The translations under genes and the position numbers were made by a program. DNA of 64,000 nucleotides from Nitrososphaerota archaeon (GTDB lineage Archaea > Thermoproteota > Nitrososphaeria > Nitrososphaerales > JACPRH01): contig JAMCPI010000003.1 in NCBI GenBank assembly GCA_023379805.1, forward strand, positions 1-64,000, read 5' to 3'. This document shows, piece after piece, positions 7,691 to 49,530 of the stretch. Within the stretch, counting starts at the first letter, position 1; the number at the start of each line of letters is the position of its first letter. A model generated the notes under the pieces. It did no database searches. It saw only the letters and a list, made by a program, of their open reading frames with translations, and was not told the origin of the DNA.

Positions 7691-9207
7691 AGCGGCAACC
7701 CCCTGAGCCAGCTGAGACTGTTGTCGTAGAGTTCACGGATATCGGTGATGCCGTGCCTAAGCATTACAAGACGCTCCAATCCTCCGCCCCAGGCTAACAC
7801 CGGGTTCTTCACTCCAAGAGGAAGAGTAACCTCGGGTCGGAATATCCCCATGCCGCACAACTCAACCCATTTACCTAGATTTTCGAAGTAAACCATTGAT
7901 TGAAGCGAAGGCTCGGTGTAGGGGAAGAAGGTTGGCCAAAACTTCACCTTCGTCAAACCCAGCTTCAGATAGAAGCGGCTGAGAAGCCCCATCAAATCTC
8001 TCATACTCACATTCTCTCCGACAGCTATGCCTTCAATCTGGTAGAACTCGTCCAGATGCTTGAAGTTCGTCTTCTCATTACGGAAAACCCGGCCCACTGA
8101 GAAGACACGAGCCTCCTTAGGCCTGTGATCGGCAAGATACTTCACGGTAACAGCCGTGGTGTGGGTGCGAAGCACAGTCTCCCTAGCCCGCTCAACATTC
8201 CATCTGTAACCCCACCCTCTTGACCCGGTATTACCGCCGTTCTCATGCACCTGAGCAATGCTCTGCACAACCTTCTCACCGCCGATCCGGCTGCTCCTAG
8301 CGTCGGCTAGGTAGAATGTGTCCTGCATCTCCCGCGCCGGGTGATCCTGAGGGATGAACAGTGCATCAAAATTCCAGAAGGAGGGTTGAATAATCGGTCC
8401 CTCAATCTCCTCGAAACCTAACGCGACAAAGATCTCCCGCACCTCGTCAATGAACTGTTGAACCGGGTGCTTCTTACCCGGGTAAACCGGCGGAGCAGGC
8501 GCCTCCACATCAAGGGGTCTCAAAACTCGGCCCTTCCACTTACCGGTCGCGAGAATATCCGGGGTTAGCTTGTCAAGCTCCTCCTCCTCACTGAGCCCCG
8601 CGGCAGCCTCTGAACCCTGCAGGGTCAAACTGATCTTAACGGTCTTCTCCTCTTTCCGCTTCAAATAGCCGGGTCGTTTCTCAAGAATCTTCAGGATCTT
8701 CCTCTCGTCCTGAGTCAAATCCCCCTCACATACTCCGCTCTCTCTAGCCAGCTTTCCCAGCAAAGCCTCCTCAAGCGTAGCCTTCTTATCGGCCTGACCC
8801 TTCGCAACCGGTCTCCCACCCACAGAAGTTATCTCGATCCAGCCTAGTTTACGAGCGTTTCCGAGAGCAGCTGAGAACTCTTGGGCGTCGCCGCTGAACT
8901 GCTTCTTCAAATCTTCAAGAGGGGTTTCGCCGGTTTTGGACAGCTGCTCTAGCAGTCTACGTTCAGGTAATCCTTCAGCAGCAGCCTTCTGACCCTCGGT
9001 GTCGAGCATGATGACTTCTCTGCTTTCAGCTTCCGCGGCGAGCAGCCCTTTCGCCTTAAGCCACTCCACAGCTCTGCGTGTCTGGTCGAGGCTTAACCCC
9101 GCCTTCTCGGAGACCGCTTCGAGCCTATCCTCCTTTTTGCCGCGTAGGGTTTTCAGCAACTTTTGCTCTAAGATGTGCAACGGCTTTGTAGACATCCGGT
9201 TCAACAA
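7681..9207 (-). CDS. pheS: Phenylalanyl-tRNA synthetase alpha subunit
   Basis: The 508-residue catalytic alpha chain. The N-terminal 200 residues are helix-turn-helix-like tRNA-binding modules typical of archaeal/eukaryotic PheS. The C-terminal half is a class II synthetase core: motif 2 around FRNEKTNFKHLDEFYQIEG and motif 3 GGGLERLVMLRHG. TTG TTG starts precede an ATG at 9195; starting there gives MSTKPLHILEQKLL, which I think more likely because it fits the usual archaeal N-terminus. It is upstream of and overlapping pheT. Confidence 0.93.
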   Translation of the reverse strand: MLNRMSTKPLHILEQKLLKTLRGKKEDRLEAVSEKAGLSLDQTRRAVEWLKAKGLLAAEAESREVIMLDTEGQKAAAEGLPERRLLEQLSKTGETPLEDLKKQFSGDAQEFSAALGNARKLGWIEITSVGGRPVAKGQADKKATLEEALLGKLARESGVCEGDLTQDERKILKILEKRPGYLKRKEEKTVKISLTLQGSEAAAGLSEEEELDKLTPDILATGKWKGRVLRPLDVEAPAPPVYPGKKHPVQQFIDEVREIFVALGFEEIEGPIIQPSFWNFDALFIPQDHPAREMQDTFYLADARSSRIGGEKVVQSIAQVHENGGNTGSRGWGYRWNVERARETVLRTHTTAVTVKYLADHRPKEARVFSVGRVFRNEKTNFKHLDEFYQIEGIAVGENVSMRDLMGLLSRFYLKLGLTKVKFWPTFFPYTEPSLQSMVYFENLGKWVELCGMGIFRPEVTLPLGVKNPVLAWGGGLERLVMLRHGITDIRELYDNSLSWLRGLPLCR

Positions 9208-23109: not shown

Positions 23110-23649
23110 TCAGCTTCTAACTACCAGTTTTCCGAACATGTCGTAATGTCCTGTTCCGCAGACAACTGAGCAGCCGAAGTAGAACTCTCCAGCCTTATCT
23201 GCGAGAAACACTATAGTTGTTACTCTTCCTGCAGGGAGGCTTGTCTCAATATTGTAATCGGGGATAGAGAACCCATGTTCCTTGTAATTTGGATCTTTTT
23301 CTGTGCTGCTTGAAATTCTCAACATCACTATGTCTCCTCGATTCACCTCGATTATGTTTGGTTTGAAGGCCCATTGAGTAGCGTTAACGTCAATCACCTT
23401 TACATCGCTCTTCATCGCCGAGACGATTGATGCGGAGGTCTCTTTCGTTAAATTTCCTATCTTAGACAGATTCTCATATTTTGAGAGCAGCTCAGAATAC
23501 TGCGTCCTGATCGTGTGAGTCTCGTTCGCAAGCTCAGCATTTCTTACTTCAAACCTGTAAACCTCGGGCTGAATCCAACTATACTCTAAAGCGGCGCCCA
23601 CTGCTAAACCTAGGGTCAGTCCTACTAGAAGATAAAATGAAATTCGCAT
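23110..23649 (-). CDS. Membrane-anchored CuA cupredoxin (cytochrome oxidase subunit II-like), stand-alone
   Basis: A 179-residue protein: one N-terminal membrane helix (about 5-22), a short coiled coil (about 30-65), then a cupredoxin domain. The metal ligands are those of CuA: a His in EHGFSIPDY and the C-terminal CSVVCGTGHYDMFG with the C-x3-C-x3-H-x2-M spacing. CuA accepts electrons from outside carriers in haem-copper oxidases and N2O reductase, but no oxidase subunit I or nosZ is in this window. It could serve an oxidase encoded elsewhere or be a soluble-domain electron carrier. It lies next to a secreted FIMAH-like protein on the same strand. Confidence 0.85.
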   Translation of the reverse strand: MRISFYLLVGLTLGLAVGAALEYSWIQPEVYRFEVRNAELANETHTIRTQYSELLSKYENLSKIGNLTKETSASIVSAMKSDVKVIDVNATQWAFKPNIIEVNRGDIVMLRISSSTEKDPNYKEHGFSIPDYNIETSLPAGRVTTIVFLADKAGEFYFGCSVVCGTGHYDMFGKLVVRS

Positions 23650-39774: not shown

Positions 39775-40272
39775 CTACTGTGCTACTATCTGTCCATTCA
39801 TCGCTCCTGGATGAATTGCACACTGATACTTGTAAGTTCCAGCGCTCAAAGTCACAGTTAAAGTCCCGGTCTGCCCAGGACTGATTTGTCCTGTTGAACC
39901 ACCAGATGCACCTTGAATATCAAAGGTGTGAGATACACTATCCTTATTCACAACAGTAAATGTCACCTGCTGTCCTGCCTTGACTGTAATTGTCGGATTG
40001 GTGGTGTTAAACTTGAAGTTTTGAGCAACAAGCGTTATTTTGGCTGCTGCTCCCTGCGAAGTTGTAGATGTAGTTGTGCTGCTAGTGTTGGTGGTACTAG
40101 TGGTTGTAGGGTAAGCTGATGTTGAAGTGCTACTATTCGTGGTGGTTGTTGACCCGGTGGTCGTATAGTAAGGAGATGTCCCTGGAGTGCCGCTTAGTAC
40201 GAAGGCCGATATCGCCACTATTACTATAATCGCAAGTATCACCGCGATTATATACGTATTTCTAGTCGCCAT
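39775..40272 (-). CDS. Membrane-anchored plastocyanin-like blue copper protein
   Basis: A 165-residue protein. An N-terminal anchor (about 7-27) is followed by a Thr/Ser-rich linker (about 35-72), likely glycosylated, then a type 1 copper domain. The ligands are His in VSHTFDIQG and the C-terminal CAIHPGAMNG (C-x3-H-x4-M), as in plastocyanin/halocyanin. It would carry electrons at the outer surface of the membrane. The minus-strand TTTTTAAGCC just upstream of the ATG is a plausible TATA box. This is one of three copper proteins in the window. Confidence 0.9.
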   Translation of the reverse strand: MATRNTYIIAVILAIIVIVAISAFVLSGTPGTSPYYTTTGSTTTTNSSTSTSAYPTTTSTTNTSSTTTSTTSQGAAAKITLVAQNFKFNTTNPTITVKAGQQVTFTVVNKDSVSHTFDIQGASGGSTGQISPGQTGTLTVTLSAGTYKYQCAIHPGAMNGQIVAQ

Positions 40273-43135: not shown

Positions 43136-43639
43136 TTAAGATTCCACAATAAACTCTCCCCACATTCCTCTGAAAGCATGCAACGTGGTATCAGGTTCAT
43201 CGGTGAAACAGCCGTAAACATAGTTGCCGGGTGGGCCGGCTACGAAGGTCATGCTTCCAGTTTGCCCCGGCTTAGTCTCGTTGATCAAGGCTCCTGTGAA
43301 GACCGGTTCGATGTGTCTGCCAAGCGCTTTATCCAGTCCCTCTTCACCTTCGTGAGCAACAGTCGGGTCAAGAGCAAACGCAAGCGTCTCCTTATCGACC
43401 AAAATCATCTCATGTGTCTGCTCCCCCTTGTTAAGCATAGTAATTGTGACTTTGTCACCTGATTTGACCCGAAGCTCAGGCCCACCTTTTGACTGGTTGT
43501 AACAGAAGTCATCCGCAATAAGCCTGAAATTCTTCTCTCCAGCCGGTTTACGCATAGGCGAAAGATATGTTGCGGCCGCGAGCAGCAGAACAACGGCTGT
43601 GAAGGCCACCAGCAAAACTAATATTTTCTTACTAAACAA
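43136..43639 (-). CDS. Membrane-anchored cupredoxin
   Basis: A 167-residue protein. N-terminal anchor (about 6-25), then a blue-copper fold: TMLNKGEQTHEMILV provides the first His; the C-terminal YGCFTDEPDTTLHAFRGMWG provides Cys, His and Met, with a longer Cys-His spacing (10 residues) than plastocyanin. A loop (about 85-115) holds acidic and His residues. The pattern resembles sulfocyanin-like or nitrosocyanin-like proteins, but I cannot assign one. It probably carries electrons on the outer side of the membrane. Confidence 0.8.
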   Translation of the reverse strand: MFSKKILVLLVAFTAVVLLLAAATYLSPMRKPAGEKNFRLIADDFCYNQSKGGPELRVKSGDKVTITMLNKGEQTHEMILVDKETLAFALDPTVAHEGEEGLDKALGRHIEPVFTGALINETKPGQTGSMTFVAGPPGNYVYGCFTDEPDTTLHAFRGMWGEFIVES

Positions 43640-46949: not shown

Positions 46950-47097
46950 CCACCAAAACTCAAAGAGATGTCTCATTGACGGATGGCAGTGAAAGAGTCG
47001 TAGTCACGCGCCAACCTCGCGAAACAAAGCCGAAATATGTTATTGGCTGGCTCCTCATAATGGTGAACATCTACCTATTGTTGTGATTATTGCGAAA

Positions 47098-47125
47098 GTG
47101 ATAATGACTATCACTATATAATTTT
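47098..47125 (+). promoter_or_regulatory. Dyad and TATA box upstream of the first multiheme cytochrome
   Basis: GTGATA (47098-47103) and TATCAC (47109-47114) form a 5-base-spaced inverted repeat immediately before TATATAATTTT (47115-47125). A second AT-rich TATA-like stretch (TCAATATAAAG) lies about 30 bases further on. The dyad touching the TATA box suggests regulated transcription by an unidentified factor. Confidence 0.5.
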
Positions 47126-47185: not shown

Positions 47186-49480
47186 ATGAAATCTCTCAAT
47201 ATGGCCATAGTGGTGGCTATCGTAGCAATTATCATCGCAGCAGCCGGGCTTGTAGTTCCTGGCCCAGCAGGCCCGGCGGGGCCAACCGGGGCACAGGGCC
47301 CAGCCGGCCTAGCCGGCCAAGCAGGACCTGTAGGACCTCAGGGACCCAAAGGAGAGACTGGTGCTCAGGGCCCAGCGGGACCACAGGGAACACAAGGACC
47401 AAAAGGAGAACCAGGAGCAACCGGAGCTCAGGGACCAGTAGGGCCAGCAGGTTTGCAAGGACCAGCTGGAGTGGCGGGTGCGAGTACTGGGACAATAACT
47501 GGCACAATCTTGGACACAAATACTGGCAAGCCACTCGCCAAGGCCAAAGTATTCACTGAGCCTTCATCAGTATCAGCATCCACCGATGCTTCTGGGAAAT
47601 ACACACTCACGGTTCCTTCCGGAGTGTATAACGTGGTAGCATCAGCATCTAACTATGACAACAACGGAGTAGCGAGCCTTTCAATTCCGTCAGGAGCTTC
47701 ATCAACTGTCGACTTGGGGCTAACACCAACAGTGTATCAGCTCATAAAAATGAAAGGCACCACAACTGCAGACAAGGAGATTTATCCGGCGAACAAAGTA
47801 GCAATAACATTGACCGGAGGCTACGCATCCCATGACAATGAGAAAATCATCACCTCTGGACTTCCAAACATAGGTGTAGGAACATACGCATACTTGGAAA
47901 GTCAGAAGACTGATGCAAGCGGCGCAAAGATCACTGCTTGGCAGTGGTCATTGCAACCACCTATGAACTCGGTTGCAAAACTGAACAGCAATAACACCCA
48001 AACAGTAAGATTCTTAGCAGACCGCGCAGGAAAATACACAGTTACCCTCACGGCAACAAACGAGAAAGGGGTAACATCGACCAGCTCAAAGGATGTATAC
48101 GCGGGAAGATATGCTGGAGTGCAGAAATGCGCAGCTTGTCACAGCGGCAACATAATGCCTGACATGGTGACGCCCTGGTCGGCAACTGGACACGCAACCA
48201 AATTCGAAGACTTCTACGGCAGCTATTCCAAGACCAGCGACTACTGCGCCAGATGCCACACCGTCGGATACGACGAAACTGCTGATAACGGCGGATTCGA
48301 CGATGCGATGAAGACACTCGGATGGTCTCCAGATAAGGGAAGCGTACTATCATATCTTAAGGCTAATCCTGCAAAGAACTACACTATCTCCGAGCTGAAA
48401 AGCAATCCAACAATATACAACGTGATGAACATCCAGTGTGAGAACTGCCACGGACCGGGTGGAAACGCTCACACATCTGCTAAGAGCTTCAACCCAACGG
48501 TCTGCGGACAGTGCCACGGCCAGATAAACGAATTGAAACTATCTGCACACAATACCGCGCCCATCAACTTCGTTGAAAGCTCAGTCGCCAAGAGTACAAC
48601 ATGCGTAAAGTGTCACTCGGGCGAAGGCTTCGTCGAGGTTCAGATGCGCGGTGAACAAGCAGTATTCCCATCAGCAGCTACACCTTCTAAACCGGCGAAC
48701 ATACCTGCACCTGAGGAGCTAAACGGCATCACCTGCGTAACATGCCACGACCCGCATCAAACCTCAGATCCGAAACCAGGAAGGTTTGGAAACGCATCTA
48801 ACCAGCTTAGAGTAATCGGAGAAGCAACACTCATCACCGGCGACAAAGTTGAAGCAGGCAACGCAGCAATATGCTACCAGTGCCACGGTGGAAGAAGAGA
48901 AGACCCCACCTACAAAGCCTCGTTCATTAAAGGAGAACAGTCACGAGGACCACATGCAAATGTTCAAGGATTAATGCTCGCAGGCAAAGGCGGCTATGAA
49001 TATTCTGGAACCACGTACATCAACTCACCTCACACATCTGTAGCCGAAGAGAAATGTGTAACCTGTCACATGTACGCATCTCTCCGCGTTGGAAGCAACG
49101 TAGCGGGAAGCCACACCTACAGCATGGTTATGCCTAACGGAACAGAAAACGTAGCCACTTGTTCACAATCAGGCTGCCACGCAAAGGGAAGCATAACAAC
49201 GTTTGACAGAAAGGCCTACTCAGACTTCGACGGCAACGGTAAAGTCGAAGGTGTACAAACCGAAGTTCAAGGACTACTAAAACAACTAGAAGCCAAACTA
49301 CCTAAGGACAGCTCAGGCAATGTAATCTCATCCGGAGTAAACGCTACAAACACTACTGAGGCTCAAAGAAAAGCACTGTGGAACTACTGGCTGGTAAAGA
49401 ATGACGGCAGTATGGGTATACACAACACCCAGTACACAGTCGGACTCCTACAGTCATCAATAAAGGACCTCTCGAAATAA
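47186..49480 (+). CDS. Collagen-stalked extracellular multiheme c-type cytochrome (9 haem sites)
   Basis: A 764-residue protein. A membrane anchor (about 6-26) leads into about 24 Gly-X-Y triplets (about 27-98), then a carboxypeptidase-regulatory-like domain (about 103-175, [20 protein letters not shown]) and a PKD/Ig-like domain (about 185-305, ending in [16 protein letters not shown]). The haem region (315-670) has KCAACH, YCARCH, QCENCH, VCGQCH, TCVKCH, TCVTCH, ICYQCH and KCVTCH (eight CxxCH) plus CSQSGCH, a CxxxCH variant. Extra His residues can act as distal ligands. With no gap to a partner gene, it should be a self-contained surface electron carrier. It is not a plain homologue of any named cytochrome I can identify. 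Confidence 0.88.
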
Positions 49481-49483
49481 AAT

Positions 49484-49530
49484 GAGTGAAGGTTCTATCC
49501 TTCACTCCTCTTCCTTTTTTCTTATTTTTA
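49484..49530 (+). terminator. Hairpin-plus-T-tract terminator of the first cytochrome gene
   Basis: GAGTGAAGG (49484-49492) pairs perfectly with CCTTCACTC (49499-49507) around a six-base loop. A T-rich run (TTCCTTTTTTCTTATTTTT) follows. The stem starts within a few bases of the stop codon. This is the look of a bacterial intrinsic terminator; archaeal termination mainly needs the T tract. Confidence 0.75.

Follow-up and report, generated by a model that had tools for sequence, protein, structure and literature searches.

A collagen-stalked nonahaem cytochrome of the NrfA/OcwA superfamily and its stalked companions in a Nitrososphaerota archaeon

The nonahaem gene and its product

The window analysed here, the first 64,000 nucleotides of contig C3 in a Nitrososphaerota genome (G000; 2.34 Mb, 95% complete), contains on its forward strand a reading frame of 764 amino acids (47186-49480) with nine haem sites (Table 1). 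Its hydrophobic N-terminus, which resembles the anchors of all the other archaeal stalked cytochromes that we found, is followed by a collagen-like stalk, two beta-sandwich domains and a multihaem head. The protein has the long unbroken Gly-X-Y run that makes a sequence collagen-like (Pfam Collagen 2.7e-14, 53 bits against a cut-off of 27). A first-pass annotation of this DNA had recognized the run but gave it 24 triplets, one fewer than the 25 that we count; if triple-helical, they would measure about 21 nm (at 0.286 nm per residue). The same annotation proposed nine haems, and this number stands: there are eight CxxCH motifs (residues 315, 354, 418, 440, 473, 517, 563 and 624), but the ninth, read as CxxxCH, is actually CSQSGCH, a Cx4CH motif. 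Since most relatives have a plain CxxCH at the corresponding alignment column, the Cx4CH is very probably a genuine haem site. Both the Gly-X-Y run and the set of CxxCH motifs are far beyond chance, as 5000 shuffles of the protein yielded runs of at most 6 triplets and at most 2 CxxCH. The two Ig-like domains noted behind the anchor and stalk are indeed there, and Pfam identifies them as CarboxypepD_reg and PKD-like beta-sandwiches; their closest structural counterparts by Foldseek are 5aq0, a carboxypeptidase D transthyretin-like domain (TMt 0.78), and the PKD domain 2yrl (TMt 0.64).

The palindrome TGATAATSAMTATCA precedes both this gene and its paralogue on contig C10 (positions 8426-8440 of locus L050) and was found nowhere else in the fetched loci, with 0.07 occurrences expected in the window. 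It is somewhat like a Fur-type box, and could be a candidate metal- or redox-responsive operator for both nonahaem copies.

Table 1. Features of the nonahaem gene, and the stalked cytochromes and associated electron-transfer genes of the genome.
Feature	Location	Strand	Basis or remarks
Palindrome AGTGATAATGACTATCACT, candidate operator	47097..47115	+	just upstream of a TATA-like stretch
N-terminal hydrophobic membrane anchor	47186..47260	+	residues 1-25; from sequence
Collagen-like stalk, 25 Gly-X-Y triplets	47261..47485	+	residues 26-100, uninterrupted; Pfam Collagen
CarboxypepD_reg (transthyretin-like) domain	47492..47722	+	residues 103-179; Pfam 1.4e-13
PKD/Ig-like domain	47894..48088	+	residues 237-301; Pfam K319L-like_PKD 2e-5, just below cut-off
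Nonahaem head, OcwA/NrfA superfamily	48092..49477	+	residues ~303-764; profile against PDB
Ninth haem motif, CSQSGCH (Cx4CH)	49160..49180	+	residues 659-665
Terminator-like hairpin after the nonahaem gene	49484..49507	+	
Stalked nonahaem cytochrome of the window	C3 47186-49480	+	Pfam Collagen
Stalked decahaem cytochrome, OmcA/MtrC family	C3 60565-62802	+	TIGR03507 1.1e-143
Second stalked nonahaem cytochrome	C10, L050 8571-10994		~60% identical to the window copy; two extra C-terminal CxxCH
Stalked ethylbenzene-dehydrogenase-type protein, three haem motifs	C2		EB_dh 5.8e-43
Two stalked trihaem proteins	C17 and C15		
NrfD, twin-arginine FeS protein, octahaem cytochrome, cytochrome b in two parts, Rieske protein, Ccm genes	C10, 18-32 kb		
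12-haem protein	C10, ~15 kb		
NapC/NrfH-like pentahaem membrane cytochrome	C7, L093 8994-9461		between ABC-type transporter genes

Affinities of the haem head

Profiles of the head, built from eight and then from seventeen relatives, were searched against the PDB. The top match was OcwA of Thermincola potens (6i5b; 3.7e-25 with eight sequences and 2.2e-27 with seventeen) and the second the undecahaem cytochrome of Carboxydothermus ferrireducens (6qvm, 1.1e-21). More distant were NrfA (1oah, 4.7e-14) and the octahaem nitrite reductases (about 1e-8 to 1e-13); c554 came next with both profiles, and MccA with the eight-sequence profile. The alignment with OcwA is collinear, starting in the first haem region and reaching the final His-Asn motif. 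On these profile matches, the head is assigned to the NrfA/OcwA multihaem superfamily. The nonahaem protein has no match to TIGR03507, the OmcA/MtrC decahaem family.

Two AlphaFold runs on seventeen-sequence alignments were confident just for the beta domains and the C-terminal helices. The head model has a mean pLDDT of 60, with most of the haem core low, and its last ~90 residues reach about 82-96. Three helices are predicted there (head residues 388-400, 423-438 and 446-461; pLDDT about 87-96), so that the long C-terminal helices typical of the superfamily appear to be present in this head as well. A Foldseek search with this low-confidence model returned superfamily members for all of the top 14 matches, although the best E-value (0.07) is not significant.

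Within the superfamily the resemblance to OcwA has its limits. The loop that bears the His-His pair over OcwA haem 2 is absent from the archaeal and closest Chloroflexota sequences, and for this reason we place the protein in the superfamily without calling it an OcwA; near the second OcwA His-His pair (that of the open haem 5) the archaeal sequences have just a single histidine. About seven non-motif histidines are conserved in the alignment for nine haems, and hence some of the haems may be open or have a non-histidine ligand.

Such an open site is one of the features expected if the head were an enzyme for a soluble substrate (nitrite, hydroxylamine or a sulfur oxyanion) operating under the S-layer, with the stalk as a simple membrane spacer. 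NrfA, octahaem nitrite reductase and MccA lie in the same superfamily, whose inclusion of reductases of soluble nitrite and sulfite would in itself speak against a surface role, and both nitrite and hydroxylamine can serve OcwA as electron acceptors in vitro (PMC6703420). However, the CxxCK motif that is catalytic in NrfA does not occur here, where all nine sites end in CH, and neither the archaeal nor the closest Chloroflexota sequences have an equivalent of the OcwA haem 2 His-His pair. Moreover, the best solved relatives are surface cytochromes and the genes of the relatives adjoin a porin and multihaem conduits. An enzymatic role therefore seems unlikely to us. Since OcwA and 6qvm come ahead of the nitrite reductases in the profile searches, surface electron transfer is the favoured reading. 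The first-pass annotation had allowed for the head turning out to be a periplasmic octahaem reductase; instead, it is the surface cytochromes that match best, the octahaem and pentahaem nitrite reductases being more distant.

The decahaem companion

The second stalked cytochrome of the window is a full member of the OmcA/MtrC family (TIGR03507, 480 bits against a cut-off of 209) that matches MtrF/OmcA in the PDB and has 24 Gly-X-Y triplets and 10 CxxCH. Direct comparison of its head with the nonahaem head gave short matches around the CxxCH motifs and no more. Thus the proposal that the two heads are unrelated was borne out, one going with OcwA/NrfA and the other with OmcA/MtrC, and the likeness between the two proteins is, as proposed, one of anchor-stalk plan alone; the same plan recurs in six proteins of this genome, whose heads are of four kinds. 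Alignment of the stalks is uninformative about their homology, as any Gly-X-Y repeat aligns to any other. Just beyond the end of the window a gene for a PQQ-type dehydrogenase (L049, 419-2557) adjoins the decahaem gene region, and PQQ-dehydrogenase-like proteins are also encoded near an 861-aa-frame decahaem of the sister species (L057).

It had also been suggested that the two cytochromes constitute one system, and in its strictest form this would make them dedicated partners, the one a relay and the other the terminal exit. They do have the same stalk plan and similar stalk lengths (25 and 24 triplets), and both kinds are present in the two species of the genus. However, each is encoded by a stand-alone gene surrounded by housekeeping genes; the two lie 11 kb apart and do not form an operon. 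The sister species has orthologues of both genes that flank the nonahaem gene (85-86% identical), and there the two are immediate neighbours, separated by 80 bases that hold no cytochrome gene; the only nonahaem gene of that species is orthologous to the C10 copy (84% identity, same gene order, with the tree in agreement). The sister-species decahaem is 46% identical to that of the window, and a decahaem from another genus (G003, 88% complete) is 63% identical; in this latter genome the nonahaem was not found. Neither kind was found in two other genomes (G002 and G004), and among 398 genomes drawn from the phylum G000 alone passed the threshold for either head. Conversely, a groundwater Chloroflexota bacterium encodes a collagen-stalked nonahaem, and nothing in its genome exceeds the TIGR03507 cut-off. 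With at least four other stalked cytochromes in the archaeal genome, we consider a dedicated partnership very improbable, and on synteny and distribution the idea of one paired system is rejected. On the best reading, the two proteins belong to a kit whose items were gained or lost independently.

The collagen stalk as a mount

Pfam Collagen exceeded its cut-off at six places in the genome, and all six are c-type cytochromes (Table 1); from the chosen stretches that were read, there are at least six stalked cytochromes. Their stalks have 17-25 triplets, or ~15-21 nm. The collagen stalk is thus a general mount, carrying four kinds of head. The sister species has six stalked proteins, two of which were not found in G000; one is a further decahaem of greater divergence and the other a class I cytochrome c. 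Contamination of the genome bin was considered as a source of the stalked cytochromes and is unlikely, the same kinds of protein being present in the sister species.

The C10 nonahaem ends in a dihaem extension for which blastp gave a weak match to the C-terminal part of the stalked EB_dh-type protein. Visual comparison suggests a likeness to repeats in the octahaem protein encoded next to NrfD as well; the extension is perhaps a docking module that these proteins share. A whole small contig (C6; L092, 11404 bases) consists of multihaem cytochrome genes without collagen stalks, and its GC content of 46%, compared with 50% for the window, could mean either a real island or a mis-binned contig.

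Beyond this genus, the closest architecture is that of the groundwater Chloroflexota protein (L001, JACQUK010000008.1), which has collagen, CarboxypepD and Ig-like segments and a nonahaem head, with about 43-45% identity. It differs in having a lipoprotein-type signal, 16 triplets and a place in an operon-like cluster with NrfD, FeS and multihaem genes. Two further sampled Chloroflexota genomes have shorter Gly-X-Y runs, and other relatives have Pro/Ala-rich linkers. Long collagen-like repeats are also present in three AmoA-bearing genomes of the order (G012, G026 and G035; loci L019, L016 and L015) in frames of 540-1347 aa; these were matched by the Gly-X-Y stretch alone, so that collagen-like proteins occur elsewhere in the order.

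Maturation and electron-supply genes

Proteins for cytochrome c assembly were found in all five genomes of the archaeon's own family and in 1 of the 36 others of the order that were examined. Archaeal AmoA is encoded in 12 of 41 genomes sampled from the order and below but in none of the five of the family, which thus has no detectable AmoA within an order of ammonia-oxidising archaea. The maturation system is partly duplicated, with two CcmF-type genes and one CcmC-type gene at 26-31 kb of C10 and 152 kb of C3.

Several anchored cupredoxin-like proteins are encoded in the window (23110-23649, 39775-40272 and 43136-43639), the second confirmed by Pfam and the first having a CuA-like CxxxCxxxH pattern; they are possible electron carriers.

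The bacterial relatives are instructive with regard to gene context. In the Chloroflexota locus, the collagen-stalked nonahaem gene is flanked on either side by a multihaem-FeS-NrfD-like module. The FeS proteins of these two modules have 40-49% identity to their archaeal counterpart, and the multihaem proteins match as well (the bacterial NrfD was called by sequence resemblance, the domain scan having covered the archaeal NrfD). In Nitrospinota (L002), the genes of two nonahaem relatives precede those for a decahaem, an MtrB/PioB-type porin (1.1e-9), a pentahaem protein, a Rieske protein and cytochrome b. These gene contexts, archaeal and bacterial, support a chain that would lead from quinol through multihaem proteins to the surface head.

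Proposed role

This group of archaea lacks an outer membrane. We think it probable that the nonahaem protein is an anchored, stalked surface cytochrome that passes electrons from the quinol pool to an extracellular acceptor, as one of a set of parallel or alternative outlets. Its N-terminal helix would anchor it in the single cytoplasmic membrane, and the collagen segment, probably a homotrimeric triple helix of ~21 nm, would together with the two beta-sandwich spacers extend the head, plausibly to a position at or beyond the S-layer. Electrons would leave the quinol pool via the NrfD/FeS/multihaem and cytochrome b/Rieske modules and short membrane cytochromes, and the head would deliver them to a metal oxide, humics, a redox shuttle or another cell. 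A collagen stalk is non-conducting, and so transfer across ~20 nm would have to use diffusion, other cytochromes or bending; the stalk would then serve as a tether, and the head would receive its electrons from other cytochromes or carriers on contact. The at least six stalked cytochromes, with their four kinds of head, would be parallel or alternative outlets and not a fixed pair.

The opposite direction of flow is also conceivable, the stalked cytochromes importing electrons from outside, from Fe(II) or a syntrophic partner. A sequence is silent about direction, and the PQQ dehydrogenase and cupredoxins near the genes would be compatible with import. However, the quinol-oxidising NrfD/FeS/multihaem and Rieske/cytochrome b modules point outward, as do the relatives of the heads, OcwA and OmcA/MtrC, and we regard uptake as quite improbable. 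The stalk length might match the height of the S-layer, a suggestion for which the literature that we searched provided no figure for the width of the thaumarchaeal pseudo-periplasm. Were the stalk a true triple helix, the product could be a three-headed, 27-haem assembly held ~20 nm off the membrane through the S-layer, and this trimeric tether, itself non-conducting, would serve unrelated heads as a general mount. This is a picture that we offer tentatively and hold to be somewhat doubtful; if true, it would mean extracellular electron transfer without outer membrane, porin or nanowire.

A survey published in 2015 did not find cytochrome c in Thaumarchaeota (PMC4429474). In the genome described here, both of the unrelated classes of terminal surface cytochrome known so far are mounted on stalks of one design, and maturation and quinol-oxidising genes are present too. 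Archaeal extracellular respiration beyond the methanogen/ANME lines thereby becomes testable, and there is the physical question of how electrons pass a ~20 nm non-conducting tether and an S-layer.

Comparison with known systems

In the open-access literature that we searched there is no description of a collagen-like stalk joined to a multihaem cytochrome. The nonahaem protein is nevertheless a variant of known surface cytochromes and not a categorically new system; what is striking is the genome-wide use of the collagen stalk.

The nearest solved relative is OcwA, a cytochrome of the cell surface capable of iron oxide reduction and of electron exchange with electrodes (PMC6703420). It has nine c-type haems in the same order, the C-terminal helical bundle of the same superfamily, and a host that is likewise without an outer membrane. 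Unlike the archaeal protein, it has no collagen stalk and, in the matched region, no CarboxypepD/PKD spacers, whereas its His-His pair over haem 2 is missing from the archaeal nonahaem; the sequence match is remote, at the level of profiles. The PDB entry 6qvm, with the phrase 'from S-layer' in its title, is by our inference from organism and haem number the OmhA of C. ferrireducens, also a bacterium without an outer membrane. OmhA is located at the cell-mineral interface, and was the sole cytochrome recovered from biogenic magnetite and sheared surface proteins (PMC7829351). It shares with the nonahaem protein the superfamily and the surface location, and 6qvm was the top, though not significant, Foldseek match; it differs in its 11 haems, and no membrane-anchored collagen stalk has been reported for it.

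NrfA, the octahaem nitrite reductases and MccA are pentahaem or octahaem proteins, with CxxCK in NrfA, in contrast to the nine CH-type sites of the archaeal head. Of the two window cytochromes, the decahaem companion is the one that belongs to the OmcA/MtrC family, but the Shewanella members of that family are outer-membrane lipoproteins that work with a porin. Finally, the bacterial collagen-like proteins of the Scl/Lcl type also employ a Gly-X-Y repeat as an extended surface stalk; their heads are adhesive or ligand-binding, whereas the archaeal stalk bears a multihaem cytochrome.
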